IMG/VR virus record: IMGVR_UViG_3300015374_000533
Location: 1-21,786 of that record
From: a virus
Direction: 5' to 3' (one strand)
DNA: 21,786 bases
Below are positions 1 through 21,786 of the stretch, piece after piece (the stretch's first letter is position 1; every line of letters begins with the position of its first letter). The translations under genes and the position numbers were made by a program. The notes beneath the pieces were generated by a model. It had not been told where the DNA came from, ran no database searches, and saw only the letters and a list, made by a program, of their open reading frames with translations.

Positions 1-18
1 ATTGCTACTAGCGTGCGG
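1..18. promoter_or_regulatory. Partial start-associated dyad (copy 0)
   Basis: On the minus strand the sequence reads CCGCACGCTA, a 7-nt spacer GTAGCAA, then T at the window edge. This matches the left arm and the start of the right arm of the 27-bp dyad found at every other gene start in 1-2382. Only the first base of the right arm is visible. Confidence 0.5.
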
Positions 19-30
19 ATCAGTAGTCAT
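1..30 (-). CDS. 5' end of a small early gene, cut by the window edge
   Basis: Ten codons are visible (MTTDPHASSN), and the gene continues beyond base 1. Its ATG overlaps the stop of the 66-aa gene at 20-220, exactly as the 118-aa gene at 1226-1582 overlaps the paralogue at 1572-1772. The N-terminus resembles that gene's MITNSHATQD, so the start region appears to have been duplicated together with the upstream gene. It carries the beginning of the 27-bp start-associated dyad. Product unknown. Confidence 0.6.
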   Translation of the reverse strand, partial: MTTDPHASSN

Positions 31-220
31 TGAACTCCGCTCCAATCACTTCGGCGAGGCGCTTCGCCTCGGACAGCGAGCCCCAGAAGTTGGCGGTCGG
101 GCTCGGTGGCCCTTCGCGGTAGACATGGATTTTCCCCGTCGGCTCGTCCTCCCGGTACTCGCCGTTGACCCAGCCGCCGCTGTCCTCGTGTTTGAAGCTC
201 ACCCGGATGCGATCAGTCAT
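20..220 (-). CDS. Small phage protein, 66 aa, paralogue of 1572-1772
   Basis: This acidic, soluble 66-residue protein starts MTDRIRVSFKHED and ends AEFNDY. I do not recognise its family. It differs from the product of 1572-1772 at only three positions (EY/EF near residue 22 and GP/ES near 37-38), so the two are recent duplicates. The ATG was chosen because AGGG lies just upstream, the ATG overlaps the stop of the 217-363 gene by 4 nt, and the dyad runs through the start codon. Its middle holds a G-W-V-N-G turn and a DEPTGKIHVY strand, suggesting a small beta-rich fold. Function unknown. Confidence 0.75.
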   Translation of the reverse strand: MTDRIRVSFKHEDSGGWVNGEYREDEPTGKIHVYREGPPSPTANFWGSLSEAKRLAEVIGAEFNDY

Positions 221-229
221 CGCGTAACC
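203..229. promoter_or_regulatory. Start-associated dyad copy 1 (gene 20-220)
   Basis: On the minus strand: GGTTACGCGA, spacer TGACTGA, TCGCATCCGG. The start codon begins in the last base of the left arm, so the dyad overlaps the translation start. It is the same as copy 7 except for two outer bases. Confidence 0.75.
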
Positions 230-363
230 CTCCACAGGAAGTAGCGGATGTCGCTCAGGCGATTGCCAGCGAAGATCGCAACCCCTGAGTCGCGGCACTG
301 CAACCAGAACTGAAGACGACCAAGGGCGTCCTGCACGCGATTCACACTTGCGCGGCTAGACAC
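217..363 (-). CDS. Small hypothetical protein, 48 aa
   Basis: This ORF, too short for most gene callers, fills the only apparent gap in the leftward chain. From GTG at 363 it reads VSSRASVNRVQDALGRLQ and ends YFLWRVTR. It overlaps the end of 356-571 by 8 nt and the start of 20-220 by 4 nt (ATGA), as its neighbours do. The dyad sits in codons 3-11. The C-terminal half holds a QFWLQCRDSG stretch and a hydrophobic segment. A GTG at 345 is an alternative start. No family recognised. Confidence 0.6.
   Translation of the reverse strand: MSSRASVNRVQDALGRLQFWLQCRDSGVAIFAGNRLSDIRYFLWRVTR
331..357. promoter_or_regulatory. Start-associated dyad copy 2 (gene 217-363)
   Basis: Minus strand: AGCCGCGCAA, spacer GTGTGAA, TCGCGTGCAG. 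It begins 6 nt into the GTG-started gene. Its presence supports the reality of this otherwise uncalled gene. Confidence 0.7.
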
Positions 364-571
364 CGAGAAACTCCAACACGTCGAGCGCCACAGCGACCAT
401 CAGCTTGCGGTTGTTCTCGGGCACACGATCCCAAGGCACGGCACTCGCAGCGCGGGTGCGGTAGCCGAAGTCGGGCGCTCGACGCTCATAGGAATCGTGG
501 AAGACTTGGGCGACTAACTCGGCCGTCTTCTGGAGTTCGTCGGACACGCGAGTGCCAGTCGCGTCCGTCAT
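356..571 (-). CDS. Small phage protein, 71 aa
   Basis: The protein reads MTDATGTRVSDELQKTAELV at its start and ends VALDVLEFLGV. It is mostly helical with Arg-rich central segments (YERRAPDFGYRTR). No family was recognised. The ATG at 571 is preferred over an upstream one because it has AAGGAG about 7 nt before it, overlaps the stop of the upstream gene by 4 nt, and the dyad begins within codon 2. It shares the MTDAT opening with the gene at 1769-1942, an effect of the shared dyad sequence rather than proof of homology. Confidence 0.7.
   Translation of the reverse strand: MTDATGTRVSDELQKTAELVAQVFHDSYERRAPDFGYRTRAASAVPWDRVPENNRKLMVAVALDVLEFLGV
542..568. promoter_or_regulatory. Start-associated dyad copy 3 (gene 356-571)
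   Basis: Minus strand: ACGGACGCGA, spacer CTGGCAC, TCGCGTGTCC. The inner ACGCGA and TCGCGT arms are perfectly complementary. It begins in codon 2. Confidence 0.8.
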
Positions 572-1050
572 ACAAGCTCCTTGCGCCATCGGATCTTCGC
601 CTCCTCGGGGCGCTGAATCTCTCCGAGAAGGTTCGATTCGTAGCGGTGGCGACCGCCTCCCCAGCCTCGTGCGGGTAGTTCGGCATCCATGACGTAGCCG
701 ACAGCCTTGACGCTCGAACCAGGTTCAGAGGCGAGTGTGTAGGTGATCGCCACGCGGTATCCGAGTGCAGCTGCGGCGCGGTGGATGGCTCCATAGAGGC
801 GTGTGCAAGCGTTCCGTGTGCCGTCTGTGCAGCATCGGAGGACTTCGATGGTTTGGCCGTCGTGGAGCTCGCGGGCGCCGGGGTATGACGCGATGGCGAC
901 TCCGATCAGGCGTTCTCCATCGGAGAGCCCGACTCCGAAGCGCCATCCGATCGGCGCGCGGTTGTGGCGATGGTGCTCCCAGACGAACCGCTTTGCTTCG
1001 GTAAGAGTGACCGGCTCAAGTCGGAGTGGTGCCGTGGCCGCGCGAGTCAC
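568..1050 (-). CDS. XF1762-family (GNAT-like) phage protein
   Basis: This 160-aa protein matches, by motif memory, the XF1762 family often found in phages and related to GNAT acyltransferases. Marks are LRLEPVTLTEAKRF at 9-22, a His-rich HHRH at 26-29, a central EVLRCCTDGTRNAC at 69-82, RAAAALGYR at 91-99 and ITYTLASEPGSS at 102-113. Family members are predicted acyl transferases whose substrates are unknown, so the reaction here is inference. The GTG at 1050 is chosen for its GTGA overlap with the upstream Cys-rich gene and for the perfect dyad around it. It overlaps the next gene by ATGA at 568-571. The C-terminal tail (RGWGGGRHRYESN onward) is basic. Confidence 0.75.
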   Translation of the reverse strand: MTRAATAPLRLEPVTLTEAKRFVWEHHRHNRAPIGWRFGVGLSDGERLIGVAIASYPGARELHDGQTIEVLRCCTDGTRNACTRLYGAIHRAAAALGYRVAITYTLASEPGSSVKAVGYVMDAELPARGWGGGRHRYESNLLGEIQRPEEAKIRWRKELV

Positions 1051-1062
1051 GATCGCGCGGCC
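1036..1062. promoter_or_regulatory. Start-associated dyad copy 4 (perfect, gene 568-1050)
   Basis: Minus strand: GGCCGCGCGA, spacer TCGTGAC, TCGCGCGGCC. This is the only copy with two perfectly complementary 10-bp arms, and it defines the consensus. The GTG start codon lies in the spacer. Confidence 0.85.
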
Positions 1063-1229
1063 CTCGCCGCCGCCAGTCGTCGCGCCTGGTCGTTGAGCCT
1101 CTTCTGCACCCGCCAACGTCGCATATAGCGGGCGTGGCACTCGCGGCGGTAGCCCTGACCTTCGCGGTCACGCGGACGACCACACCCGCAGGAGCACGCC
1201 ACGTGATCGGGTGTCGCGCGGCCAGTCAT
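1047..1229 (-). CDS. Cys-rich 60-aa phage miniprotein
   Basis: The 60-residue basic protein has a CSCGC cluster at 12-16 and a further Cys at 31 (YRRECHARYMRRWR), followed by a highly basic helix. This pattern suggests a small metal-binding knuckle with a nucleic-acid-binding tail, and I infer no more than that. The ATG at 1229 gives an ATGA overlap with the upstream gene and puts the dyad at codon 3. An upstream extension would overlap the neighbour and is rejected. Confidence 0.7.
   Translation of the reverse strand: MTGRATPDHVACSCGCGRPRDREGQGYRRECHARYMRRWRVQKRLNDQARRLAAARAARS
1197..1223. promoter_or_regulatory. Start-associated dyad copy 5 (gene 1047-1229)
   Basis: Minus strand: GGCCGCGCGA, spacer CACCCGA, TCACGTGGCG. 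It begins 6 nt after the start of the ATG. Confidence 0.8.
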
Positions 1230-1582
1230 GCGGCGTCTCCGAGGTAGCGGCATTCGGCCTGCGCGTAGCGATGCTGCTCGCCCCACGGCTTCCGCTCGGT
1301 GTCATTCGGCAGGTCTCCGGTGCCGCCGTCGAAGTCATCCAGGATCTCCTCGTAATCCCAGCCGGCGATCTCGCACACCTTCTGGAGATGCAGGTCGCAT
1401 GTCGGGACAGCGCCGATGACCCACCATGCGTCGACGGCGCACTTCTCTGTGCGCTGCTCGATGGGGGCATCCGTGTCTGGCGTGCCGGGCAGGACGGGCA
1501 GGCAGCACGGCAGCGAGATCGGCACGCGGGTGATGACGGCGTCGGCCGCGTGATCTTGAGTCGCGTGCGAATTAGTAATCAT
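1226..1582 (-). CDS. Hypothetical early protein, 118 aa
   Basis: This acidic protein has four Cys residues (PCCLPV near 25-28, EKCAVDAWW near 48, PTCDLHLQKVCE near 62-70) and a DYEEILDDFDGGTGDLPND loop. Family not recognised. The ATG at 1582 overlaps the end of the 66-aa gene at 1572 by 11 nt. The same arrangement recurs at 20-30, where the start of a paralogue is visible, so duplication covered both the 66-aa gene and at least the start of this one. The dyad lies in codons 5-13. Confidence 0.7.
   Translation of the reverse strand: MITNSHATQDHAADAVITRVPISLPCCLPVLPGTPDTDAPIEQRTEKCAVDAWWVIGAVPTCDLHLQKVCEIAGWDYEEILDDFDGGTGDLPNDTERKPWGEQHRYAQAECRYLGDAA
1544..1570. promoter_or_regulatory. Start-associated dyad copy 6 (gene 1226-1582)
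   Basis: Minus strand: TCGCACGCGA, spacer CTCAAGA, TCACGCGGCC. It lies 12 nt inside the gene, slightly deeper than in most copies. Confidence 0.75.
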
Positions 1583-1772
1583 TGAACTCCGCTCCGATCA
1601 CTTCGGCTAGCCGCTTAGCTTCGGACAGAGAGCCCCAAAAGTTGGCGGTCGGGCTCGGTGACTCTTCGCGGTAGACATGGATCTTCCCAGTCGGTTCGTC
1701 CTCGCGGAACTCGCCGTTGACCCAGCCGCCGCTGTCCTCGTGTTTGAAGCTCACCCGGATGCGATCAGTCAT
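1572..1772 (-). CDS. Small phage protein, 66 aa, paralogue of 20-220
   Basis: This is a near-identical copy of the product of 20-220, with the same length and MTDRIRVSFK start. The gene DNA differs at scattered, often third-codon, positions. Its AGGAGG Shine-Dalgarno is fused to the left arm of the dyad (AGGAGGCCACGCGATG), so a protein bound at the dyad, or a hairpin there, would mask the ribosome site. It overlaps the upstream gene by ATGA. Function unknown; retention of two copies suggests the product is useful or dosage-sensitive. Confidence 0.75.
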   Translation of the reverse strand: MTDRIRVSFKHEDSGGWVNGEFREDEPTGKIHVYREESPSPTANFWGSLSEAKRLAEVIGAEFNDY

Positions 1773-1781
1773 CGCGTGGCC
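1755..1781. promoter_or_regulatory. Start-associated dyad copy 7 (gene 1572-1772)
   Basis: Minus strand: GGCCACGCGA, spacer TGACTGA, TCGCATCCGG. It overlaps both the Shine-Dalgarno sequence and the ATG. Confidence 0.8.
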
Positions 1782-1942
1782 TCCTGATCGGGGCCATGTA
1801 GGCGCTGGACCATGTCGGCGAGATGATCGGCTACGGGCCACCACTCGCTCGGCTTGGCGCGACTGGCGATCATCAGCTTCACCGCGGCCATGACAGCAGC
1901 GGCGTCAGCCTTGGCCGCGCGATGTTCAGTCGCGTCCGTCAT
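1769..1942 (-). CDS. Small hypothetical protein, 57 aa
   Basis: The protein (MTDATEHRAAKADAAAVMAA at its start, HLADMVQRLHG near its end) is Ala-rich and probably all-helical, with a central SEWWPV turn. GGGAGG lies about 8 nt before the ATG at 1942. It overlaps the genes on both sides by 4 nt. No family recognised. Confidence 0.65.
   Translation of the reverse strand: MTDATEHRAAKADAAAVMAAVKLMIASRAKPSEWWPVADHLADMVQRLHGPDQEATR
1913..1939. promoter_or_regulatory. Start-associated dyad copy 8 (gene 1769-1942)
   Basis: Minus strand: ACGGACGCGA, spacer CTGAACA, TCGCGCGGCC. It begins in codon 2. Confidence 0.8.
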
Positions 1943-2058
1943 TCGACAAACCTCCCTCGTTCGACCGGGCCAGCAGCCGACCAGTCGCGCGGCAGAATCC
2001 AGAGCGCGATCCTGATGCGGATGCGGCGGACGCGAGTATGGATCGCGCGGCCAGTCAC
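1939..2058 (-). CDS. Very small basic protein, 39 aa
   Basis: From GTG at 2058 the ORF reads VTGRAIHTRVRRIRIRIALW and ends PVERGRFVE. It is strongly basic in its first half. It is supported by GTGA and ATGA overlaps on its two sides and by the dyad at codon 3. It has no other evidence and could be a leader-like peptide that carries translation across the dyad. Function unknown. Confidence 0.5.
   Translation of the reverse strand: MTGRAIHTRVRRIRIRIALWILPRDWSAAGPVERGRFVE
2026..2052. promoter_or_regulatory. Start-associated dyad copy 9 (gene 1939-2058)
   Basis: Minus strand: GGCCGCGCGA, spacer TCCATAC, TCGCGTCCGC. It begins 6 nt after the start of the GTG codon, as in copy 5. Confidence 0.8.
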
Positions 2059-2231
2059 TCCGGCACCTCTTCCTTGAAGCCCAGCCAGCCGAGCACCTTC
2101 CATGTCCAGATATAGCCCGTGCAGAAGCCGCGAATCCACGGATCAACGTGGACATTCCATGCGTACCGATGTCCAGCGATGAACTCGGCATCCTTGGCCG
2201 CGCGACTTGGAATCGCGTTGCGGTCAGTCAT
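2055..2231 (-). CDS. Small Trp-rich protein, 58 aa
   Basis: The product starts MTDRNAIPSRAAKDAEFIAG and contains a Trp/aromatic cluster (DPWIRGFCTGYIWTWKVLGW, about residues 30-49), which could be one membrane-associated or amphipathic segment. The ATG at 2231 overlaps the upstream gene by 8 nt. The dyad covers codons 4-12. No family recognised. Confidence 0.65.
   Translation of the reverse strand: MTDRNAIPSRAAKDAEFIAGHRYAWNVHVDPWIRGFCTGYIWTWKVLGWLGFKEEVPE
2196..2222. promoter_or_regulatory. Start-associated dyad copy 10 (gene 2055-2231)
   Basis: Minus strand: CGCAACGCGA, spacer TTCCAAG, TCGCGCGGCC. Confidence 0.8.
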
Positions 2232-2382
2232 CATCGTCCTCATAGCGAGCCACGAGCCGGCGAAGCGCCGCGAAGACTCGGTCGGTGGCGGCGGTAATGT
2301 CTTCAGCCCAGAGTTCGATGAGACGACGGGCCTCGTCATCATCGGCCGCGTGATTGTCGGTAGAGTGGCCGCTGCTACTCAC
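2224..2382 (-). CDS. Small acidic protein, 52 aa, first gene after the att site
   Basis: From GTG at 2382 it reads VSSSGHSTDNHAADDDEARR and ends ARYEDDDD, an acidic, helical protein. A longer reading from 2451 would begin MEAAGIEPALP, the familiar spurious translation of a tRNA/tmRNA 3' end in antisense, and is rejected. GGTGGAG lies about 9 nt before the GTG. The dyad lies 27 nt inside the gene. Function unknown. Confidence 0.6.
   Translation of the reverse strand: MSSSGHSTDNHAADDDEARRLIELWAEDITAATDRVFAALRRLVARYEDDDD
2344..2370. promoter_or_regulatory. Start-associated dyad copy 11 (gene 2224-2382)
   Basis: Minus strand: GGCCACTCTA, spacer CCGACAA, TCACGCGGCC. The left inner arm is degenerate. 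It is the copy nearest the att site. Confidence 0.65.
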
Positions 2383-2417: not shown

Positions 2418-2450
2418 GCGGTAACGCGGGTTCGATTCCCGCCGCCTCCA
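2418..2450 (+). other. attP: Putative attP core: tRNA/tmRNA 3'-end mimic
   Basis: The plus strand has a perfect T-arm: stem GCGGG (2426-2430), loop TTCGATT (2431-2437), stem CCCGC (2438-2442). It is followed by a 7-nt acceptor strand CGCCTCC (2443-2449) and discriminator A (2450). No anticodon arm or 5' acceptor half is present, so this is a 3'-end copy, not a gene. Tyrosine-integrase phages commonly carry such copies as attP so that integration restores the host RNA. The CCTCCAC ending with A discriminator looks more like a tmRNA than a serine tRNA (inference). The integrase gene is 1.3 kb away. The 117-bp gap 2383-2499 holds this element and little else. Confidence 0.75.
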
Positions 2451-2465
2451 CTATTCCGCGTAACC

Positions 2466-2510: not shown

Positions 2511-2859
2511 CTCCTCGACGATCATCGCGCGCCTTCCTCTCTCGGTTGAGAGTCCGCGCAGCTTGGAGCCAACCTGAAGTCATGGCGGAGTTGATGAAGT
2601 AGGTGTACTTCCTCCCTCCAGCGAACCCCTCGTCGCGCCGGAACAGGTGCTCCTCGTTCTCGTAGAAGAAGTCGGCAAGGACGGCCCCGAGTTCCATCTT
2701 GACGGGTACCCAACGAGACTCCTCGGGGTTCCAGCATTCAAGGCGTAGGTCGTGACCAGGAGCTCCGTCGTGTCGACGTAGCTTCGTTCCTGCAACGACC
2801 TTGAACCGGAAGCCGTCCACACGGACCTCCTGGCCGACGTGCCAGCGCCTAGACGTCAC
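2500..2859 (-). CDS. Hypothetical protein, 119 aa
   Basis: This basic protein begins TSRRWHVGQEVRVDGFRFKV, a small beta-barrel-like opening of the sort seen in proteins with a short SH3-like domain. It then has ECWNPEESRWVPVKMELGAV and a basic C-terminus (RTLNRERKARDDRRGE). No family recognised. The GTG at 2859 overlaps the stop of the methyltransferase gene (GTGA). It is the last gene of the leftward early operon before the att site. Confidence 0.65.
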   Translation of the reverse strand: MTSRRWHVGQEVRVDGFRFKVVAGTKLRRHDGAPGHDLRLECWNPEESRWVPVKMELGAVLADFFYENEEHLFRRDEGFAGGRKYTYFINSAMTSGWLQAARTLNRERKARDDRRGEAA

Positions 2860-3788
2860 GATGCCACCTCGACATGTTCGAGCGCCTCATTGCCCCAACT
2901 GTCCCAGTTGAACCGCTGCGACCGGGCGAACATCTCAAGATACGGTCCGGGCGAGCACTTCTCGACGAGGTCGTAGAACATGCCGGGCTTGGCGCTGTGC
3001 CGGCCGCGGCGAGCTTCGAACGCGGTGGGCACGTCGCGGGCCTGGGTGCGGAGGCCGCCACGGACGCCGAACAGGACGTGTTCGGTGTTGTTGCGGAAGT
3101 AGTTCCCGAGCCCGATCTGCGGCTTGACCCAGGTCAGGCACGTCTTGTAGGCGAACCCCCACGCGTCTACGACCTGGAAGGCTTCTCGGAGGAAGCCGTT
3201 GGTCGTCCAGAGGTAGAGGTGCGCCTCTTCCGCTACCCACTCGTCAACGGGGAGCGCGCAGAGCTCGTCGATGGTCATGGTGGGGTAGTGGTCTTCGGCG
3301 GCGCCGCGTGTGGCCCTGTTGCCGTACTGCCAGGGCGGGTCGGAGACGACGACGCTGTACCGGCCCGTCGGCATCGGCACGACCTTCGGCGTGTTCTCGT
3401 AGGAAGCTCGCTTGGCGAGTTTGAGCAGTCCAGCCGTCGTCAACTCCTGGGCCGATGCCAGGTAATCCTCGAAGGACTCCTCTGGGACGGACGCGATTCG
3501 TTGCCACCGTGAGGATTGGTTGTGGGAGACTCCTACCTCTACCACGGTGGTAGAGGTAGAGCGCCCACCGGGGTTCTTCGGCATCTCGGAAAGCATCTCT
3601 CCGGCCTTCCGCTCGGCGCGGAGCTTGAGTTCGGCCGCCTGGTTCATCGCCTCCAAGCCCATCCCAGCGGCCTGCGCGTAGGCGCGGAACGCCTCGGCGG
3701 TGTCCCGGATGCGCCGCACATCATCGAAGGACGTAGCGAGTTCAAGCTCCCGCCGGGCCACGGAGATGCGTTCGAGAGCCGAACTCAT
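2856..3788 (-). CDS. MT-A70-family N6-adenine DNA methyltransferase
   Basis: The 310-aa product has an N-terminal helical region (1-128) with an HTH-like stretch GVSHNQSSRWQRIASVPEE (86-104), then an MT-A70 domain. Visible motifs are DPPW (150-153, the catalytic motif IV), DHYPTM (166-171), LYLWTTNG (191-198), CLTWVK (217-222) and HSAKP (264-268). The family transfers a methyl group from S-adenosylmethionine to adenine N6; in phages it is thought to protect DNA from restriction or mark it (inference here). The order DPPW then S-adenosylmethionine-site elements fits the usual MT-A70 topology. ATGA overlap with the integrase gene. The gene carries a 27-bp perfect palindrome at 3533-3559. Confidence 0.88.
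   Translation of the reverse strand: MSSALERISVARRELELATSFDDVRRIRDTAEAFRAYAQAAGMGLEAMNQAAELKLRAERKAGEMLSEMPKNPGGRSTSTTVVEVGVSHNQSSRWQRIASVPEESFEDYLASAQELTTAGLLKLAKRASYENTPKVVPMPTGRYSVVVSDPPWQYGNRATRGAAEDHYPTMTIDELCALPVDEWVAEEAHLYLWTTNGFLREAFQVVDAWGFAYKTCLTWVKPQIGLGNYFRNNTEHVLFGVRGGLRTQARDVPTAFEARRGRHSAKPGMFYDLVEKCSPGPYLEMFARSQRFNWDSWGNEALEHVEVAS
3533..3559. repeat. 27-bp perfect palindrome inside the methyltransferase gene
   Basis: CTACCTCTACCAC (3533-3545), one central G, then GTGGTAGAGGTAG (3547-3559). It encodes TSTTVVEV in the linker before the HTH-like segment. It would form a very stable hairpin in mRNA, or a long dyad for a DNA-binding protein. Confidence 0.8.
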
Positions 3789-4891
3789 TGCGCCTCGGTC
3801 GCCTCCTGGGCGCGCTTTTCAGAGAGGAGCCGCAGCGCCTCCGCCAAGTCGTCCATGTCGAGGTGGGCGTACATCGCAGTCGTCTTGATGTCGGCGTGGC
3901 CGAGCATCTGCCGCGTCAGCTCTAGGTTCCCCGACGAGCGGAGTAGATCCGTCGCCGCGGTGTGCCGCATCTCGTGCATTTTCCGCGACTGGGGGACGCC
4001 GGCTGCGGCGAGGCGGCGCTTCCACCAGTTGTGCATCGCGGCGGCCTTCAGCGGCGCGTGGCGATCCTCCCAGTTCAGTCCGAGCGGCGGCCCGTCCGGG
4101 TCGCGGCGAGGCCCGTACTTCTGGGGGTACATGAGGTATTCGTCGCGGTCGCCGGTGGCGAGGCGGTCGAGCCAGTGCGCGTCTAGGAGCAGGCGGAGCG
4201 CGTCGTTGGCGACGGGGAGGGTGCGGATCTTCCCGCCTTTTCCGGTGATGTGGAGGATCCGCCGGCCGGTGTCGTAGTCTCGGAGGCGGATCGCGGCGAG
4301 CTCGGACTTCCGGAGGCCGTACTCGATCAGGATGGCGACGGCGCAGCGTTCGCGTTCCGTCTCACACGCGGCGAGGATCCGTTTCGGCTCGTCGCCCTGG
4401 TAGACGTTCCGACGCGTGTCGCGGCGTTTCGGGCGGGCGATGCCGATCGTCGGCGAGCCTTTGAGGAGGTCTTCGCCGACGGCCCAGTTGAAGAAGTCGC
4501 TGAGGATGGAGAGGTTCTTCGCCTTCGTCCTGCCGCTGCGGACGCCGGCCTTGCTGCGGGTGCGGGCGTAGGCTGGTGCTCCGCTGCCCCAGTGGCGGTC
4601 GAGGAATTCGCGGACTAGCTTGCGGCCGGTCGGTGGTTCGAAGTCGACGAGTTCGAGGGTGGGGTGGTCGAGGCATAGGTATGCCAGGGGGATCTCGTAG
4701 TCGCGGATGGTGAGTTCCGCAGCCCCGTATTCGTGTTCCTTCCAGCGAAGGTACTCGGCGACCACGAGACCGACGGGGCAGCCCTGGTAGGACTTGTCGC
4801 GCACGGCCTGGCGGACGAGGGTGGCGAGTTCTGCGATCCGCGTCAAGCGTTCGCGGCTGGGAAAGTCGCTGTTTGCGGGGTCTGCGTTCAC
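3785..4891 (-). CDS. int: Tyrosine recombinase (phage integrase)
   Basis: This 368-aa tyrosine integrase has an N-terminal core-binding SAM-like domain (about 38-150: DKSYQGCPVGLVVAEYLRW, then TRSKAGVRSGRTKAKNLSIL). The catalytic domain shows Arg194 (YGLRKSEL), Lys218 or Lys221 (TGKGGK), His306-x-x-Arg309 (MHEMRHTAA), His332 (LGHADIKTT) and the nucleophile Tyr341 (AMYAHL). It would recombine attP with a tRNA/tmRNA attB. The GTG at 4891 gives a GTGA overlap with the upstream gene; longer readings begin in low-quality Arg-rich translation. It sits inside the leftward operon with no promoter of its own seen, so its expression probably follows the early promoter. Confidence 0.95.
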   Translation of the reverse strand: MNADPANSDFPSRERLTRIAELATLVRQAVRDKSYQGCPVGLVVAEYLRWKEHEYGAAELTIRDYEIPLAYLCLDHPTLELVDFEPPTGRKLVREFLDRHWGSGAPAYARTRSKAGVRSGRTKAKNLSILSDFFNWAVGEDLLKGSPTIGIARPKRRDTRRNVYQGDEPKRILAACETERERCAVAILIEYGLRKSELAAIRLRDYDTGRRILHITGKGGKIRTLPVANDALRLLLDAHWLDRLATGDRDEYLMYPQKYGPRRDPDGPPLGLNWEDRHAPLKAAAMHNWWKRRLAAAGVPQSRKMHEMRHTAATDLLRSSGNLELTRQMLGHADIKTTAMYAHLDMDDLAEALRLLSEKRAQEATEAQ

Positions 4892-5163
4892 TGGTCGGAC
4901 TCGTCGGGGTTGCAGGCGAGGATGCAGGAGTGGGGGCGGAAGCGGTAGAAGTCGCCGAGATCGTCGGGATCCCACGGATGCATGACGCCGGTGATGGGGT
5001 GTAGCCACCAGTGGCCGTCTTCGCTGGCGGTCCACGTCTTGGTGAGTTCGCTGGCGCTGGTGCGGGCGCGGATGATCTGGGCGCCGCAGGTGCAGCGTTG
5101 CGGGCCGTAGCGCGTCGCGGCGAGTATCCGGTTCCGGTCTGTGCGGGTGATGTGGCGCGTCAT
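4888..5163 (-). CDS. Hypothetical protein, 91 aa, possible zinc-binding fold
   Basis: The product has CTC at 24-26 (GPQRCTCGAQII), several His (51, 55, 62, 78) and a C-terminal CILAC (80-84), an arrangement that could bind a metal. Two Trp pairs (HWWLHP, MHPWDPDD) lie in the centre. Family not recognised. ATG at 5163 with ATGA overlap on one side and GTGA overlap with the integrase gene on the other. Confidence 0.65.
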   Translation of the reverse strand: MTRHITRTDRNRILAATRYGPQRCTCGAQIIRARTSASELTKTWTASEDGHWWLHPITGVMHPWDPDDLGDFYRFRPHSCILACNPDESDQ

Positions 5164-6349: not shown

Positions 6350-6675
6350 CGGGTGGTGCCCCTTTCGGCGTGGCTGTGTGCCTCCCGACCATCCGCTGCG
6401 TCGGGCACAACGCTGAGGGTTGGCGGATGGTCGGGAGGCTGGTTGAGGCCCATGTCGGCGACGATGCGGTCATAGGGACGTTCGCCCCAGTGTCGAGGCG
6501 CCGGGCGTGCCTGGACACGACCACGCATCGCGTCACGGGCCCGCTCTAAGAGCCGCACGAGGTGTTCGCAACGCTGTTCGAGGATGTCGACGTCCATGTC
6601 GGCCTTCCACCACTGGTACGCGCAGTACGCGGCGACGGGCCAGCCGAGACTCACGATGAGGACGAACCCGGTCAT
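6346..6675 (-). CDS. Membrane-anchored protein with coiled coil, 109 aa
   Basis: An N-terminal membrane segment (about 3-21, GFVLIVSLGWPVAAYCAYQW) is followed by a heptad-like helix (27-48, VDILEQRCEHLVRLLERARD) and a polar, Pro-rich tail. It resembles small phage spanin-like or signal-anchor proteins in shape only; no family recognised. ATG at 6675 overlaps the stop of the annealing-protein gene. The C-terminal coding part contains the 17-bp inverted repeat at 6380-6439. Confidence 0.6.
   Translation of the reverse strand: MTGFVLIVSLGWPVAAYCAYQWWKADMDVDILEQRCEHLVRLLERARDAMRGRVQARPAPRHWGERPYDRIVADMGLNQPPDHPPTLSVVPDAADGREAHSHAERGTTR
6380..6439. repeat. Perfect 17-bp inverted repeat, 26-nt loop
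   Basis: GCCTCCCGACCATCCGC at 6380-6396 and its exact complement at 6423-6439 flank a 26-nt loop. The whole lies within the C-terminal coding part of the 109-aa gene. It would form a strong hairpin in the early transcript. No T-run follows it on either strand. Confidence 0.8.
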
Positions 6676-7466
6676 GACGGGATGGCGGGTTCGTCGAAGT
6701 TGGTTTGGCCGGCCGCTTCGAGTTCTTCGCGGGTGAGGACGTGGTCTTCGCTGGGTTCGCGGATCGCCTGCGCCGCCGTCGACGGAAGATTCTCGGCCTC
6801 CCACTTCAGAAGGTACTTGAGCCCCTTGTCGGGGTCTCCGGCGAATCCGACGAACGCTTCGAGGAGTCGATTGACGCCGCTTCGCGGGACGTCTTTGGAG
6901 CTGGTGACGCCGAAGAGGCGACGAGTGATGCGGTAGCGGAGATGGTCGTCGATGCCGTGATCATTGGCGGTGATGGCGATCTTCTGCTGCTGGCTCTTCG
7001 TGGTGAGCAGCGGCGGCTTCTCAGGCTGAGGCTGAACAGGTTCGGGCGCGTCTTCGTGGCCGGCGAGCGGTTCCTTCGCCCAAAGGTCGAGCGCCACGCC
7101 AAACCGCATCGCGCAACGCCGGATCGCGTCGCTACTGATCTCTTTCATGTTCGGGCCGTCTCCCCACTCGTACTTCGTCGACCCTGCGATTGTGAGGTAG
7201 TGGAGGACGCTGCCGTCCTGTTCCTTCACCGGCCGCTTGTTGACGTCGAGGACGGGGCCGAACTCGTAGTCGGGGTCGACGCTGATGAGGCGATCGGTGA
7301 CGGCGGCGTGGCCGACGTAGTCGAGATGCACCGCCGGCAAGCCGTGCCAGCCGCCGCATTCCTTGCAGCGGCCCTTCGGGTTTTCCTTCTTCGTCGGCTT
7401 GGGGAGCTTCCCGATCTGTTCGGGCTTGAACTCGGCGCGCAACGCTGTCATCTGCTCGCTCGTCAC
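6672..7466 (-). CDS. Putative single-strand annealing protein (Rad52/Erf/Sak-like)
   Basis: The 264-aa protein has a short N-terminal KLPKPTKKENPKGRCKECGG (20-39) with a Cys-x-x-Cys knuckle. It then has HLDYVGHAAVTDRLISVDPD (47-66), a strand YLTIAGSTKYEWGDG (90-104) and EISSDAIRRCAMRFGVALDLW (109-129). This AAVTDRL ... DALRRAAMRFGVA plan is shared by phage recombination proteins of the Rad52/Erf/Sak group. The C-terminal 130 residues are a linker and a helical domain with a final DEPAIPS, reminiscent of acidic SSB-binding tails. Its role is probably recombination and genome circularisation. GTG at 7466 by GTGA overlap; ATG 7451 is the alternative. Confidence 0.6.
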   Translation of the reverse strand: MTSEQMTALRAEFKPEQIGKLPKPTKKENPKGRCKECGGWHGLPAVHLDYVGHAAVTDRLISVDPDYEFGPVLDVNKRPVKEQDGSVLHYLTIAGSTKYEWGDGPNMKEISSDAIRRCAMRFGVALDLWAKEPLAGHEDAPEPVQPQPEKPPLLTTKSQQQKIAITANDHGIDDHLRYRITRRLFGVTSSKDVPRSGVNRLLEAFVGFAGDPDKGLKYLLKWEAENLPSTAAQAIREPSEDHVLTREELEAAGQTNFDEPAIPS

Positions 7467-7633
7467 TGGTCGGCCTCTTCGCGGCGCCGCTTCCGCTCGA
7501 CCACGATCGCTTCGACGTAGGTGCGGACGTAGATGTCGTGGATCGCTGCGGGGTACTGGCCGCGCAGATAGCTCCGCTCGGCTTCCTGGTGGAGCTGGTG
7601 GAGCTCTTGGGCAGCGACGACGACGCTCGTCAT
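7463..7633 (-). CDS. Small helical protein, 56 aa
   Basis: This short gene is found by filling the gap in the overlapping chain. It starts MTSVVVAAQELHQLHQEAER, has YLRGQYPAAIHDIYVRTYV in the middle and ends RKRRREEADQ. It is amphipathic and helical with a basic C-terminus. ATGA overlap with 7630-7830 and GTGA overlap with the annealing protein support it. No family recognised. Confidence 0.65.
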   Translation of the reverse strand: MTSVVVAAQELHQLHQEAERSYLRGQYPAAIHDIYVRTYVEAIVVERKRRREEADQ

Positions 7634-7830
7634 TCTCCGCTCGCTTCTCGGTGGAGTTCCCGCGCGATCGCGGCGTCGATCTCGTCGAAGTCGTCGAGGC
7701 GGAACTCATTCAAGCGGCGCCGAGCCGACGCGGCGAGTTCGTCGTAGCGGGTCCGCTGCCACGGCTCGGCGAGGACGGCGCACAGGACGATGCCGGTGAT
7801 GAGCGCGGCGAGGCAGAGGATGGTGATCAC
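7630..7830 (-). CDS. Single-span membrane protein, 66 aa
   Basis: From GTG at 7830 the product opens with a hydrophobic segment (VITILCLAALITGIVLCAVL, 1-20), followed by a charged cytoplasmic-type helix (RRRLNEFRLDDFDEIDAAIA). It is the second gene of the leftward early operon, right after the HTH gene, with a GTGA overlap. Early membrane proteins of this size sometimes block superinfection, but nothing in the sequence proves that. Confidence 0.6.
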   Translation of the reverse strand: MITILCLAALITGIVLCAVLAEPWQRTRYDELAASARRRLNEFRLDDFDEIDAAIARELHREASGE

Positions 7831-9236: not shown

Positions 9237-9620
9237 ATGCGGAACCTCGCCATCATCACCACGATCGTCGCCGGCGTCGGCATCCTCGCCGGCACAGCCA
9301 ACGCCTCAACCGAAGACGTGACGCTCTCCGCGCCGCTCGTCACCGTCGCGCGAACAAACGCGTTCACCGCCACCACGGCATACCAGATCCCCAACGGCGA
9401 CGCCGCCATCATCACCTACAAGCTCTATCGCCACCGCTCTGGCCCCGGCTTCGAACTCGTCCGCACCGTCCACCACGTCGTCACAATGGCGAACGGCATG
9501 GACACCGCCACTCTCAGGACGCCGCTCTGGTATGGCGTCGGCTACCGTGTGAAGGTGCGCCTCGTCGACGTTTCGACGGCGACCATCGTCCACGCTCCGA
9601 CTGTTAGGATCCACCTATGA
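9237..9620 (+). CDS. Secreted small protein, likely lysogeny-expressed
   Basis: The 127-aa product starts with a Sec signal peptide (MRNLAIITTIVAGVGILAGT, ANA at 21-23, cleavage before Ser24). The mature domain is about 100 aa of alternating strands (TLSAPLVTVARTNAF, AAIITYKLYRHR, ELVRTVHHVV, YRVKVRLVDVS), reminiscent of an Ig/fibronectin-like beta sandwich, with no Cys. The AAGGAGG Shine-Dalgarno is ideal. A strong promoter with two operator sites shared with the switch suggests expression coordinated with lysogeny, so this is a candidate lysogenic-conversion or superinfection-exclusion factor (inference). It overlaps the next gene by ATGA. Confidence 0.7.
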   Translation: MRNLAIITTIVAGVGILAGTANASTEDVTLSAPLVTVARTNAFTATTAYQIPNGDAAIITYKLYRHRSGPGFELVRTVHHVVTMANGMDTATLRTPLWYGVGYRVKVRLVDVSTATIVHAPTVRIHL

Positions 9621-9811
9621 GCGAGTATCACGGCCCATCCCGAACCGCGCACGGACTCGCATATTGGGGCATCGTCGGCTGGTGGTGGGAGCCAATGAAG
9701 TGGCTCGGCCGCGTCGCGTTGTGGATCGTGTTCTGGCCACTCGGCCTGTGGCGCAGCATCCGCCACGGCCGCAAGACGCGTGAAGCGCGCGAGCGGCGCG
9801 GCTACCGGTAA
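9617..9811 (+). CDS. Trp-rich membrane protein, 64 aa
   Basis: A single hydrophobic segment (about 27-46, MKWLGRVALWIVFWPLGLW) is preceded by Trp-rich GWWWEP and followed by a strongly basic tail (RSIRHGRKTREARERRGYR), so the C-terminus is probably cytoplasmic. It is translationally coupled to the secreted protein (ATGA) and the two probably act together at the envelope. Family not recognised. Confidence 0.65.
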   Translation: MSEYHGPSRTAHGLAYWGIVGWWWEPMKWLGRVALWIVFWPLGLWRSIRHGRKTREARERRGYR

Positions 9812-9816
9812 AAGGC

Positions 9817-9878
9817 GGCGCCTCGCCCCGTTCTAGTGAGGAACGGGCCAGGGCAAGTGGCCCAAAGGGCGAGACGCC
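9817..9878. terminator. Three-way-junction inverted repeat between convergent operons
   Basis: An outer 12-bp stem (9817-9828 with 9867-9878, one mismatch) encloses two hairpins, each of 5 bp with a 7-nt loop: CGTTC/GAACG at 9829-9845 and GGCCA/TGGCC at 9846-9862. The element starts 5 nt after the stop of the rightward unit and ends 10 nt from the stop of the leftward late operon. It is the natural place for a bidirectional terminator, although neither strand shows a U-run. Its regular fold also fits a structured RNA. Confidence 0.55.
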
Positions 9879-9888
9879 AACCCAGACG

Positions 9889-10029
9889 TTACCCGACCAG
9901 CGCCGCGACCACCAAGTAGACCGCCACGGCGACGACCGGCACAACGAGGCCGTGGCTAAGAGAGATGACGATCGCCGCGATCGACGCGCAGACCATGAAG
10001 ATCCGCGCCTCGATCGGACAACTGGTCAC
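9889..10029 (-). CDS. Small two-span membrane protein, 46 aa, last gene of the late operon
   Basis: From GTG at 10029: VTSCPIEARI, then hydrophobic FMVCASIAAIVISLS and VVPVVAVAVYLVVAALVG. The hairpin of two short membrane segments suits a holin or antiholin-like protein in the lysis cluster, but the family is not recognised. GTGA overlap upstream. Confidence 0.55.
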   Translation of the reverse strand: MTSCPIEARIFMVCASIAAIVISLSHGLVVPVVAVAVYLVVAALVG

Positions 10030-10178
10030 AAGAGCAGCAGCAATCCCAGCGCTGCGAGCAGGATGCCGACCGCGGCGTGCAGCGAATCGACGTGGAGGGT
10101 CCCCGCCCAGAAGAGGACGCCGACGATGATGGCGATGATGCACAGCAGGCTATGGAGCGTGGGTTCGGGCCTGGTCAC
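10026..10178 (-). CDS. Small two-span membrane protein, 50 aa
   Basis: This ORF is too short for usual callers. It reads VTRPEPTLHSLLCIIAIIVG at its start, then VLFWAGTLHVDSLHAAVGIL, and ends LLAALGLLLLL. Two membrane segments are linked by a short polar turn. GTGA overlaps on both sides support it. A holin-like role is possible from its position only. Confidence 0.6.
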   Translation of the reverse strand: MTRPEPTLHSLLCIIAIIVGVLFWAGTLHVDSLHAAVGILLAALGLLLLL

Positions 10179-10357
10179 GCTTCGTCCTTTCCATAGGTGG
10201 TGAGGAGGTACCCGCCGAGACGGGCGAGGTGTTCATCTTCGGGGCGGACCGGCTCGTTCGGCTGGTCGCCGTAGACAGCTAGGAGATGGCCGCCGAGTTT
10301 CGCCATCTCCTCGTGGACGAGGCGCCGCACTTCTGCTTGGGTGAGGGGTTTCGTCAC
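10175..10357 (-). CDS. 60-aa protein with an internal duplication
   Basis: The product contains two similar halves: HEEMAKLGGHLLAVYGD (15-31) and DEHLARLGGYLLTTYGK (41-57). Soluble and amphipathic. GTG at 10357 overlaps the holin-candidate stop (GTGA). No family recognised. The duplication suggests a dimer-like helical hairpin. Confidence 0.6.
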   Translation of the reverse strand: MTKPLTQAEVRRLVHEEMAKLGGHLLAVYGDQPNEPVRPEDEHLARLGGYLLTTYGKDEA

Positions 10358-19446: not shown

Positions 19447-20396
19447 AACACCCACCGCCGATACGGTGCGAGCAGTCGGAGCGCGCCAGCGGGGAGGCCA
19501 TAGCTAGAGTCGATCGATCCGGGGTAGACGACGCGGGGATCGTCCTGGAGGATGTCTTGCGCGCCGTACCCGGCGATCGAGCGGTCCATCCATGCGCCGA
19601 CGGTGCGAACCGCCGCCATCTTCACGTCGTTCGGGACGGTGGCGAAGCCCCATGCTCCGGTGATGTCGATCAGGGCGTACCCGAACTTCGTAGCGACCGT
19701 CGAGAGGACGGGAGCTGTCGGAGCGAGCCGGAGCCGCTTATACGTCCCCGTAAACGTCGTGACTGGTTCGAGCATATAATCCGTCGTCTGAGTCAAGGCG
19801 ACGGGCGACGATGTTTCCGGGTTGAGGCTGACCGATGATGCTGTGCGGAGGTCGTAGGGGCCGAGTTCGACGACGCCGCCGATCATCGCTTCAACGCGGA
19901 ATCTGCGCGTGGCGCTCGTAGTCGCTGGTGCGAACTCTCGGTCGGTATAGCGGATGATCGCCTGTGACGCGCTCGTGATGAGCGTCGGGATCAGGTCATC
20001 CATCTTGGTGTATTCCTGGCGGAACACGAGCATTTCGCGGACATCGGCGACAGTGCAGAGATCGGCGGTCGACGCCTGGGCGTGGCTGCGGAAATAGATG
20101 GCGAACTCGGGCGTGTCCTGCGTCTTCGCCGAGGTCGTGACTGTCCACCAGCCGACGTATTCGCCAGCCGTGTCGACGTCACCCGATGCCCAGTCATATC
20201 GGACAGTCCCAGCCGGTGCCGAGACGATGACGGCGGTCGCAGCGTTCACTTTCGGCACCGAACTGGTGCGGAGCCGCATCGAGAACGTGACTCCGCTAGC
20301 ACCTGTCAGGTCGATCGCGGCGCCGGTCGAATCGTTCGAGATCGTGTCTGCGAGGCTAGGGTTGCGGTTCCCGACGAACTGAAAGATGTCAGCCAA
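19443..20396 (-). CDS. Head-tail connector fused to a BppU-like N-terminal domain, 317 aa
   Basis: Residues 1-105 form a beta-sandwich resembling the BppU N-terminal domain ([60 protein letters not shown]). From about 110 it is a gp6-like connector ([45 protein letters not shown]). The fusion is unusual because BppU belongs to baseplates. The start is a TTG (20396) with GGAG upstream, 3 nt after the previous stop. Confidence 0.65.
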
Positions 20397-20399
20397 GGC

Positions 20400-21786
20400 T
20401 CACTCCGGTTCCGACGCGTAGCCGCCGCCGCTGGGATCGGTCGAGAAGCCTGGGGGGTGCGGTTCGGACGCGAATCCTGGAGGTGACGGATTGGTGCCGT
20501 ACTCTCCTGGGCTGTGGCGTGTCGCATATCCACGGGACGGATCGCTGCCGAATCTGCCGGTCACGATCGCCACTATGCCGGTGGTTACGATGACTGGGAC
20601 GAGCGCAGACGCTGCGGCCGATGCCGCGGATGGTGTGACCCTGACGATCAACGTCGGCGTGAGCGCCGATCCAGTCGCTGTCGCTACGGGTGGCAGTATC
20701 CTCGTCGCCAAGACCGGAGCGAGAGCCGACGCCGTAGCTGTAGCTACGGCGGGGAGAACCTGAGATGCGAGGGCGGGGGTGAGTGTCGAAGCCGTCGCCG
20801 TGGCAACTGTTGGTGCGACCGTGGTCTGCAACGTCGGCACCAACCCTGATGCCGTCGCCGACGCTGTCGCCGGCAGGATGAAGAGTCCTATCAGGATCGT
20901 CGGGACGGGAGCCGAAGCGGTCGCCGACCCCGAACCAGGCAAGACTATGAGGTTGATGTTCGGGTTCAACCCAGAACCCGTCGCCGACGCCGCTCCGGGA
21001 GGCACGATGAGGTTCACCTGTGGCCCCAACGCTGACGCCGTCGCATTCGCTACGGCTGGCGGTACGACGAGTCGGATCGTCGGTCCGAGAGCCGACGCTG
21101 TCGCAGCCGCAACGGATGGCGGGATCGTCAACACGACTTGCGGACCGACCGCCGAACCAGTGCTCCCCGCGACAGCCGGTTGGAGCATCTCGATCAACGT
21201 CGGCGTCAGCGCCGATGCGGTCGCTCCCGCGACGGCCGGGGTAAGCGTGATGTTTCCGCCAACCGCGGCGGACGGAATCGAGATCGTCCGATCCTCGAAG
21301 AACGCGAACGGCCCCGACGCGGTCGGACCCTCCGTCAAATACGTCTGGCCGAGCGACTCGAACAACTGCGACTGGTCGATCTGCCCCAAGCTCGCCGGCC
21401 GGAACGTCGCCATCACTCCGAAGATGTTCCCCGTATCCGACACGAACGTCGGCGACGACGTGACGGTGCCAGCCGTCGTCATCACCTGGTATTCGACGTA
21501 CTGGTGGATGAACGGCGTCGATGCGTTCGACGGGCCATCCTGATACTCCGTGAACCCGCTCGAAGCCGTCCCCGAATCGCCATTCGCACCCGACCCGACG
21601 TGCGTGATGATCGAGATCGCGAGATCCCCATCCGCCGCATAGGTGGAGAGCGACAGCGGTGATCCGCCGCCGAAGCCGAAGCCCGTATACCGATTCGTCT
21701 GCGGAGTCTCGTTCGCGACACCCGACACTCCGAACGCGGAGAGTTGGTGCCGCGTCGGCGAGTTGTTGTAGTTGATCGTGAACGTC
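20400..21786 (-). CDS. Repeat-rich structural protein, 5' end beyond the window
   Basis: The frame stays open to base 21786 (FTINYNNSPTRHQLSAFGVS upstream of the GTG at 21728), so the start lies outside. Numbering from 21728, residues 1-112 form a beta-sandwich-like domain ending FGVMATFRPASLG. Residues about 164-384 hold eleven 20-residue repeats of the pattern PAVAxATASALxPxxxLxVP. Residues 391-442 hold six nonapeptide repeats of the pattern G-F/Y-A/S-S/T-x-P. Its place beside the connector gene suggests a head decoration or stalk-like fibre. DNA is correspondingly repetitive. Confidence 0.7.
   Translation of the reverse strand, partial: TFTINYNNSPTRHQLSAFGVSGVANETPQTNRYTGFGFGGGSPLSLSTYAADGDLAISIITHVGSGANGDSGTASSGFTEYQDGPSNASTPFIHQYVEYQVMTTAGTVTSSPTFVSDTGNIFGVMATFRPASLGQIDQSQLFESLGQTYLTEGPTASGPFAFFEDRTISIPSAAVGGNITLTPAVAGATASALTPTLIEMLQPAVAGSTGSAVGPQVVLTIPPSVAAATASALGPTIRLVVPPAVANATASALGPQVNLIVPPGAASATGSGLNPNINLIVLPGSGSATASAPVPTILIGLFILPATASATASGLVPTLQTTVAPTVATATASTLTPALASQVLPAVATATASALAPVLATRILPPVATATGSALTPTLIVRVTPSAASAAASALVPVIVTTGIVAIVTGRFGSDPSRGYATRHSPGEYGTNPSPPGFASEPHPPGFSTDPSGGGYASEPE
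20402..20558 (-). repeat. Tandem 27-bp coding repeats (9-aa units)
   Basis: Six nine-residue units, for example PGFASEPHP and PGFSTDPSG, at the C-terminus of the structural protein, rich in Gly, Pro and aromatic residues. Confidence 0.65.
20577..21239 (-). repeat. Tandem 60-bp coding repeats (20-aa units)
   Basis: Eleven consecutive units with invariant spacing of 20 codons, except one of 22. Conserved core is ATASALxP. At the DNA level the units are diverged, so the array is old and kept for protein structure rather than newly expanded. Confidence 0.75.

Follow-up and report, generated by a model that had tools for sequence, protein, structure and literature searches.

Spacer-ordered dyads at the junctions of coding modules suggest an undescribed route of gene swapping in viruses

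Core sites of tyrosine recombinases have two inverted arms with an overlap of constant length, about 6 to 8 bp, between them. The heterospecific lox and FRT sites used in recombinase-mediated cassette exchange are engineered, with generic arms, few spacers, and a choice of partner determined by the spacer. Integron cassettes come in variable order, carry folded attC sites at their 3′ ends, and depend on the IntI integrase. The PeSLs of T4-type phages are said to be units of an early promoter and a terminator stem-loop located between genes. In the R64 Rci system, sfx sites with a 7-bp core and a variable arm join alternative coding segments in frame (PMC11852207). Cluster K mycobacteriophages carry start-associated sequences (SAS), asymmetric 13-bp elements (GGGATAGGAGCCC) just upstream of start codons, as well as ESAS, inverted repeats whose spacer is mostly 4 to 13 bp long, whose RNA hairpin is little supported, and which follow the gene family; some of these phages integrate at tmRNA (PMC3203893). 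Here, we describe a 27-bp dyad found at the start of each of the 12 minus-strand genes in positions 1 to 2382 of an IMG/VR viral record, IMGVR_UViG_3300015374_000533, which has no host genome attached and is analyzed over its entire 21,786 bp (the window). No described equivalent of such arrays was found; the nearest systems each share one feature with them and fail on others. Nor did the literature reveal any ordered, spacer-addressed set of sites, although subscription journals were mostly outside the scope of that survey, so that the absence of such a description is not proven.

The initial annotation had listed 11 complete dyads and a partial one, and all of them were found where it placed them. 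The spacer between the arms is exactly 7 bp in all 11 complete copies, and the partial copy is genuine. The consensus quoted earlier, GGCCrCGCGA-N7-TCrCGyGGCC, fared less well: the core rCGCGA-N7-TCGCGy is kept, but the fit is looser than implied, with 0 to 7 mismatches per 20 arm positions and weakly conserved outer GGCC positions. With a scoring matrix built from the window copies and related sites, the 11 copies score 13.9 to 26.3, and only one position elsewhere in the window reaches the threshold of 12 (a weak site at 7107, score 12.3); Markov shuffles of the window give a mean of 0.74 such positions.

Related sites were collected by pattern scans of viral contigs and by matrix search. 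These searches, which yield an incomplete list, required a spacer of 7 bp, and all related sites found have that length. Dyad arrays are present in at least seven further viral contigs (G001, G002, G003, G004, G005, G009, and L161), which are metagenomic and partial and come from different samples. G001 and G009 are phages related to that of the window. G002 holds two arrays (G002A and G002B, at 4151-4715 and 9464-10340), which reuse several spacers in the same order; this phage encodes a DNA polymerase and a ribonucleotide reductase. G007 has a single site (CTCAAGA). As the cluster genes are all on the minus strand, the array of the window reads from 2382 down to 1, and its dyads are listed below in that order, with the spacers in gene orientation.

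2344..2370, minus strand: dyad 1, spacer CCGACAA, degenerate left arm; within the start of gene 2382-2224 (GTG start)
2196..2222, minus strand: dyad 2, spacer TTCCAAG; start of gene 2234-2055
2026..2052, minus strand: dyad 3, spacer TCCATAC; start of gene 2058-1939 (GTG start)
1913..1939, minus strand: dyad 4, spacer CTGAACA, also in both G002 arrays; start of gene 1942-1769
1755..1781, minus strand: dyad 5, spacer TGACTGA, also in G001, G002B, and window dyad 11; ATG in the spacer; gene 1772-1572
1544..1570, minus strand: dyad 6, spacer CTCAAGA, also in G001, G002A, G002B, and G007; start of gene 1582-1226
1197..1223, minus strand: dyad 7, spacer CACCCGA, also in G001; start of gene 1229-1047
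1036..1062, minus strand: dyad 8, spacer TCGTGAC, also in G001; perfect palindromic arms; GTG in the spacer; gene 1050-568 (XF1762-like)
542..568, minus strand: dyad 9, spacer CTGGCAC, also in G001 and G005; start of gene 571-356
331..357, minus strand: dyad 10, spacer GTGTGAA, also in G001, G002B, and G005; start of gene 363-217
203..229, minus strand: dyad 11, spacer TGACTGA (second copy); gene 220-20, a paralogue of gene 1772-1572
1..18, minus strand: dyad 12, truncated by the contig end; spacer GTAGCAA at 2-8, also in G001, G002A, and G009; gene start at 30

The main signal sits in the 7-bp spacer, which had previously been treated as filler. Spacers of different arrays are either identical or unrelated: there are 29 identical pairs between arrays compared to 0.84 expected from position-specific composition (0 of 2,000 simulations), and pairs at distance 1 (9, with 10.8 expected) and distance 2 (56, with 61 expected) stay at chance level. 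Over a dozen different 7-mers common to several phages are conserved exactly and are near-unique within an array; the outer arms of same-spacer sites are barely class specific. The order of shared spacers agrees in 36 of 36 pairwise comparisons of sites found without using the spacers, and in 65 of 65 after the addition of arm-degenerate sites, which were located by searching for known spacers; dyad 5 (TGACTGA), which belongs to a duplicated cassette, was excluded from both counts. Neither value was reached in any of 20,000 order shuffles, a count that is not a probability, given that arrays of related phages are not independent. The order is acyclic across 36 spacers, and a single global order fits every array. 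G001 carries CTCAAGA, CACCCGA, TCGTGAC, CTGGCAC, GTGTGAA, and TGACTGA in the same order as the window. At positions 27197-27221 of G001, TGACTGA and GTAGCAA follow each other in the usual order, only 18 bp apart, with one arm in common and no gene between them, an empty cassette.

The association with start codons noted in the initial annotation applies to every site of the window, where the start codons are located at most 12 nt ahead of the dyad or 12 nt into it and the frame is constant. It is not general, however: 10 of the 70 curated sites in relatives have no nearby in-frame start, most of them lying inside an open reading frame (ORF), and at least one G001 array gene has no dyad at its start. 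The distance to the start codon varies even inside one spacer class, and the start may precede the dyad or fall in the spacer. The frame of the dyad, GGC CRC GCG ANN NNN NNT CGC GYG GCC, was assessed by the position of stop codons, as a test based on the longest ORF is unreliable in GC-rich DNA (39 of 70). In 43 of 59 intervals, frame 0 runs to a stop no more than 30 nt from the next dyad, compared to 9 and 8 for the other two frames; in the window, it stops near the next dyad in all 10 intervals. Nine pairs of successive sites in G002, G005, and G009 share one ORF. Given the constant frame and the sites inside ORFs, the dyad is a junction of coding modules rather than a start signal in itself, although it is usually placed where a gene begins.

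What lies behind a given spacer changes from phage to phage. Downstream modules are unrelated in 55 of the 57 same-spacer pairs, the two homologous pairs being the window duplication and one methyltransferase cassette (G001/G009). Genes of the MT-A70 family are found behind three spacers (TGACTGA, CTGCGAA, and TAGTGGA), and XF1762-like genes behind two (TCGTGAC in the window and CTCCGCA in L161). Flank identity of same-spacer sites is 0.29 to 0.32, against 0.27 to 0.30 between classes, i.e., at background. The cassette shared by G001 and G009, which extends from CTGCGAA to GCACCAG, has diverged to 0.53 identity at the amino acid level and 0.48 at third codon positions, with both flanking spacers unchanged. 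The window itself contains a duplicated cassette:

11..225, minus strand: duplicated cassette of 215 bp, 92% identical to the other copy at 1563-1777

The similarity between its copies begins and ends inside the flanking dyads, and the downstream edge coincides with the boundary between arm and spacer.

The combination of variable generic arms, an exact 7-bp center, near-unique spacers, and a fixed order and frame points to exchange between sites of the same address. The dyads are thus probably, though by no means certainly, exchange junctions for accessory cassettes, and sometimes for protein modules, between phages. Exchange would take place at the spacer. The arms would provide a generic pair of protein-binding half-sites, and the spacer would serve as an address, with strand exchange only between sites that have the same one. 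As each spacer is near-unique in its array, such exchange would keep the cassettes in order and spare the neighbors from deletion; as every site is in one frame, it would rejoin the start region to a new body in frame. The presence of many arbitrary 7-mers, each of them exact, argues for a pairing step, in which any sequence works if the partner matches, and a pairing mechanism is preferred because a single reader protein would not keep so many arbitrary sequences letter for letter. That there are at least 36 mutually distinct natural sites of this kind, through which co-infecting phages swap genes or modules in register, frame, and order, might well be true, but we would not put it quite at even chances. 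The simplest candidate for the enzyme, though a more doubtful guess than the exchange itself, would be a tyrosine-type recombinase, perhaps the neighboring phage integrase, acting with an overlap of 7 bp. Recombinases of this type operate in broadly this manner, and the dyads do have inverted arms around an overlap of fixed length (7 bp throughout, the length required by the searches). In L161 (1277-1842), one XF1762-like gene lies directly between two dyads sharing the spacer CTCCGCA, which would make it an excisable cassette under the exchange model.

Three further features lie next to the array or elsewhere in the window:

3785..5035, minus strand: tyrosine integrase (PF00589, phrog_1), candidate enzyme
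2423..2452, plus strand: 3′ end of the tmRNA gene, probable attP core, 30/30 identical to G001 24687-24716
6672..7709, minus strand: single-strand annealing protein (phrog_3290), candidate for a rival recombination route

The array adjoins the 3′ end of the tmRNA gene, downstream of the integrase, and this tmRNA end adjoins the integrase and the array in G001 as well. A PF00589 integrase is encoded in the window, G001, and G005, in all three next to the array. A core common to attP and the dyad is suggestive only: the dyad-like score of the tmRNA T-arm is weak (5.6e-4 of the window positions reach it), and the match is one register off the loop.

Several observations weigh against exchange at the spacers by such an enzyme. 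No PF00589 domain was found in 5 of the 8 contigs searched, some of which may be fragments, and neither PF00589 nor PF00239 recombinases were found in G002, G003, G004, and G009; the enzyme would need to be absent, divergent, or supplied in trans. The integrases of the window and G001 are only 26% identical. On the downstream side, the copies of the window's duplicated cassette adjoin different spacers, contrary to a strict rule of identity, and no recent exchange was seen between near-identical phages. The spacer classes were noticed before they were tested and are therefore post hoc; the distance distribution and the order test are independent of how the classes are drawn. In an in vitro screen of Cre/loxP, identical spacers were not preferred, so that strictness of the spacer is not to be assumed (PMC1479339). 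No integrase relatives were found among viral contigs, and a search for serine recombinases found none.

A serious rival to spacer-addressed exchange, if an unlikely one in our estimate, is that the dyads are short patches of homology used by an annealing protein and a Holliday junction resolvase, with no site-specific enzyme. Proteins of these kinds are present in several array phages (annealing or recombination proteins in the window, G001, and probably G009; RusA-like and RuvC-like resolvases in G002 and G004). A duplication whose copies adjoin different spacers is what exchange via the arms could produce, and T4-type phages shuffle modules via common PeSL motifs (Arbiol 2010 and Comeau 2014, as cited in PMC4503421). 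However, the exact identity over same-spacer pairs is often short, 8 to 20 bp; homologous exchange would tolerate spacers with one mismatch, yet these show no excess; and the arms should then be conserved like the spacers, which is not seen. The single global order could also stem from an ancestral scaffold, in which the sites of a single old array were each retained for another purpose while its genes were replaced by illegitimate events, and the relatedness of the window, G001, and G009 is in line with this. Such a scaffold appears improbable, since over a dozen different 7-mers would not all be kept exact by a single reader protein, the outer arms vary although a binding protein would be expected to read them, and gene replacement falls at the sites themselves.

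The two functions proposed in the initial annotation, a gene-by-gene operator and a translational hairpin, both fail to explain the exact spacers, their fixed order with unrelated genes, the variable start distance, and the in-frame sites within ORFs. The palindromic arms near gene starts and their confinement to the accessory region would suit an operator or stoperator of a dedicated repressor, but start distances that vary inside a single spacer class, together with the ordered exact classes and the sites in ORFs, make this very improbable. We give hardly any credence to a translational RNA hairpin with a 7-nt loop, even though the arms are roughly complementary and overlap start codons. Its arms do not covary, in agreement with the earlier preference for a DNA-level element: at the variable arm position, the A-T, A-C, G-T, and G-C combinations occur as under independence (Fisher p = 0.53), and outer-arm pairing matches the expectation from composition. 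No Rfam family matches within the array; comparison with the Rfam 15 covariance models gave only a sub-threshold tmRNA match, the end of which covers the tmRNA 3′ end at 2423-2452.

Two further candidates were dismissed. A motif acting at the protein level was rejected because there are almost no spacers that differ by synonymous changes alone; CACCTGA and CACCCGA initially seemed to be such a pair, but CACCTGA is a class of its own, common to L161, G003, G004, and G005. An origin from tRNA anticodon arms was rejected because 21 of 34 spacers have a base other than T at position 2, the counterpart of U33 in the anticodon loop. In a Kerfeldbacteria genome (L139, positions 3630-3656), the anticodon arm of a tRNA-Leu(CAA)-like sequence is an exact match to the CTCAAGA dyad core; this was judged a coincidence.

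Compared with the described systems, the dyads resemble SAS and ESAS as repeats at the translation starts of small non-structural genes, and ESAS also as inverted repeats for which an RNA hairpin has little in its favor; the window phage shares with some cluster K phages tmRNA as the (probable) integration site. The likeness to cluster K start-associated sequences pointed out earlier extends to location and stops there. The sequence at the starts is the dyad and not the 13-bp SAS motif; unlike ESAS, the dyads have a fixed 7-bp spacer with shared identities and overlap the coding sequence in frame; and the site is decoupled from the gene, as seen in the mostly unrelated same-spacer pairs and in MT-A70 genes behind several spacers. 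PeSLs are likewise recurrent motifs placed among small accessory genes, where they favor the shuffling of modules in hyperplastic regions. The dyads differ from them in being frame-locked within coding sequence and in having address-like spacers in conserved order. Stem covariation is not seen in the dyads. By analogy, the R64 sfx sites may be compared to the dyads in their 7-bp center, variable arm, and in-frame joining of coding segments; however, their cores are conserved across sites and the segments invert inside one plasmid, whereas the dyads have many distinct cores in one orientation, and exchange would be between phages. Generic arms are common to the dyads and heterospecific lox/FRT sites, as would be the choice of partner by the spacer, but the dyads comprise 36 natural spacers and their enzyme is putative. 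Integron attC arrays also consist of small genes separated by imperfect palindromes, in contrast to which the dyads keep a fixed order and lie at gene 5′ ends in frame or inside ORFs; moreover, several array contigs have no tyrosine recombinase of any kind by PF00589 search (IntI was not searched for separately), which does not fit an integron.

Outside the viral contigs, similar arrays were not encountered. The initial annotation had asked whether the dyad is dense in host genomes or lost in close relatives: 396 genomes of one sampled phylum, Actinomycetota, gave 6 single matches and none with more than one, and in the relatives the dyads persist, but with other genes. A search for host prophages with the CTCAAGA pattern in 84,980 genomes found no array. 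Among cultured phages, blastn with the window array gave no match; in plasmids, apart from short matches, there was only one to a gene, XF1762.

Array cassettes in G001, G004, G009, and L161 are rich in DNA methyltransferases of the MT-A70 and C5 types, and one G004 cassette encodes an SLOG/DprA-like protein. This content suggests a role in counter-defense, and with several DNA methyltransferases among the cassettes, the arrays may be where phages trade such genes. The window encodes a related enzyme outside its array:

2856..3788, minus strand: MT-A70 DNA methyltransferase, of a family shared with array cassettes of G001, G004, and G009

It has long been asked how phages shuffle accessory and anti-defense genes while keeping operons and reading frames intact, and the usual answer is random illegitimate recombination plus selection. 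Spacer-ordered sites with differing genes suggest, as far as sequence comparison goes, a previously undescribed gene-swapping route in viruses; ordered, address-coded junctions, if real, would be a dedicated one and a biological counterpart of multiplex recombinase-mediated cassette exchange. This makes the question directly testable, as predicted junctions are accessible both in metagenomic sequences and in plasmid assays; if an enzyme reads the dyads, they would form a natural collection of recombination sites, distinct from one another and ready for use.

Two other repeats were seen in the window. A perfect palindrome with 13-bp arms, CTACCTCTACCACGGTGGTAGAGGTAG, lies at 3533-3559, inside the methyltransferase gene, and a 58-nt repeat is present in 6 copies at 20632-21235, spaced by multiples of ∼60 bp, within a large minus-strand ORF (20389-21786).

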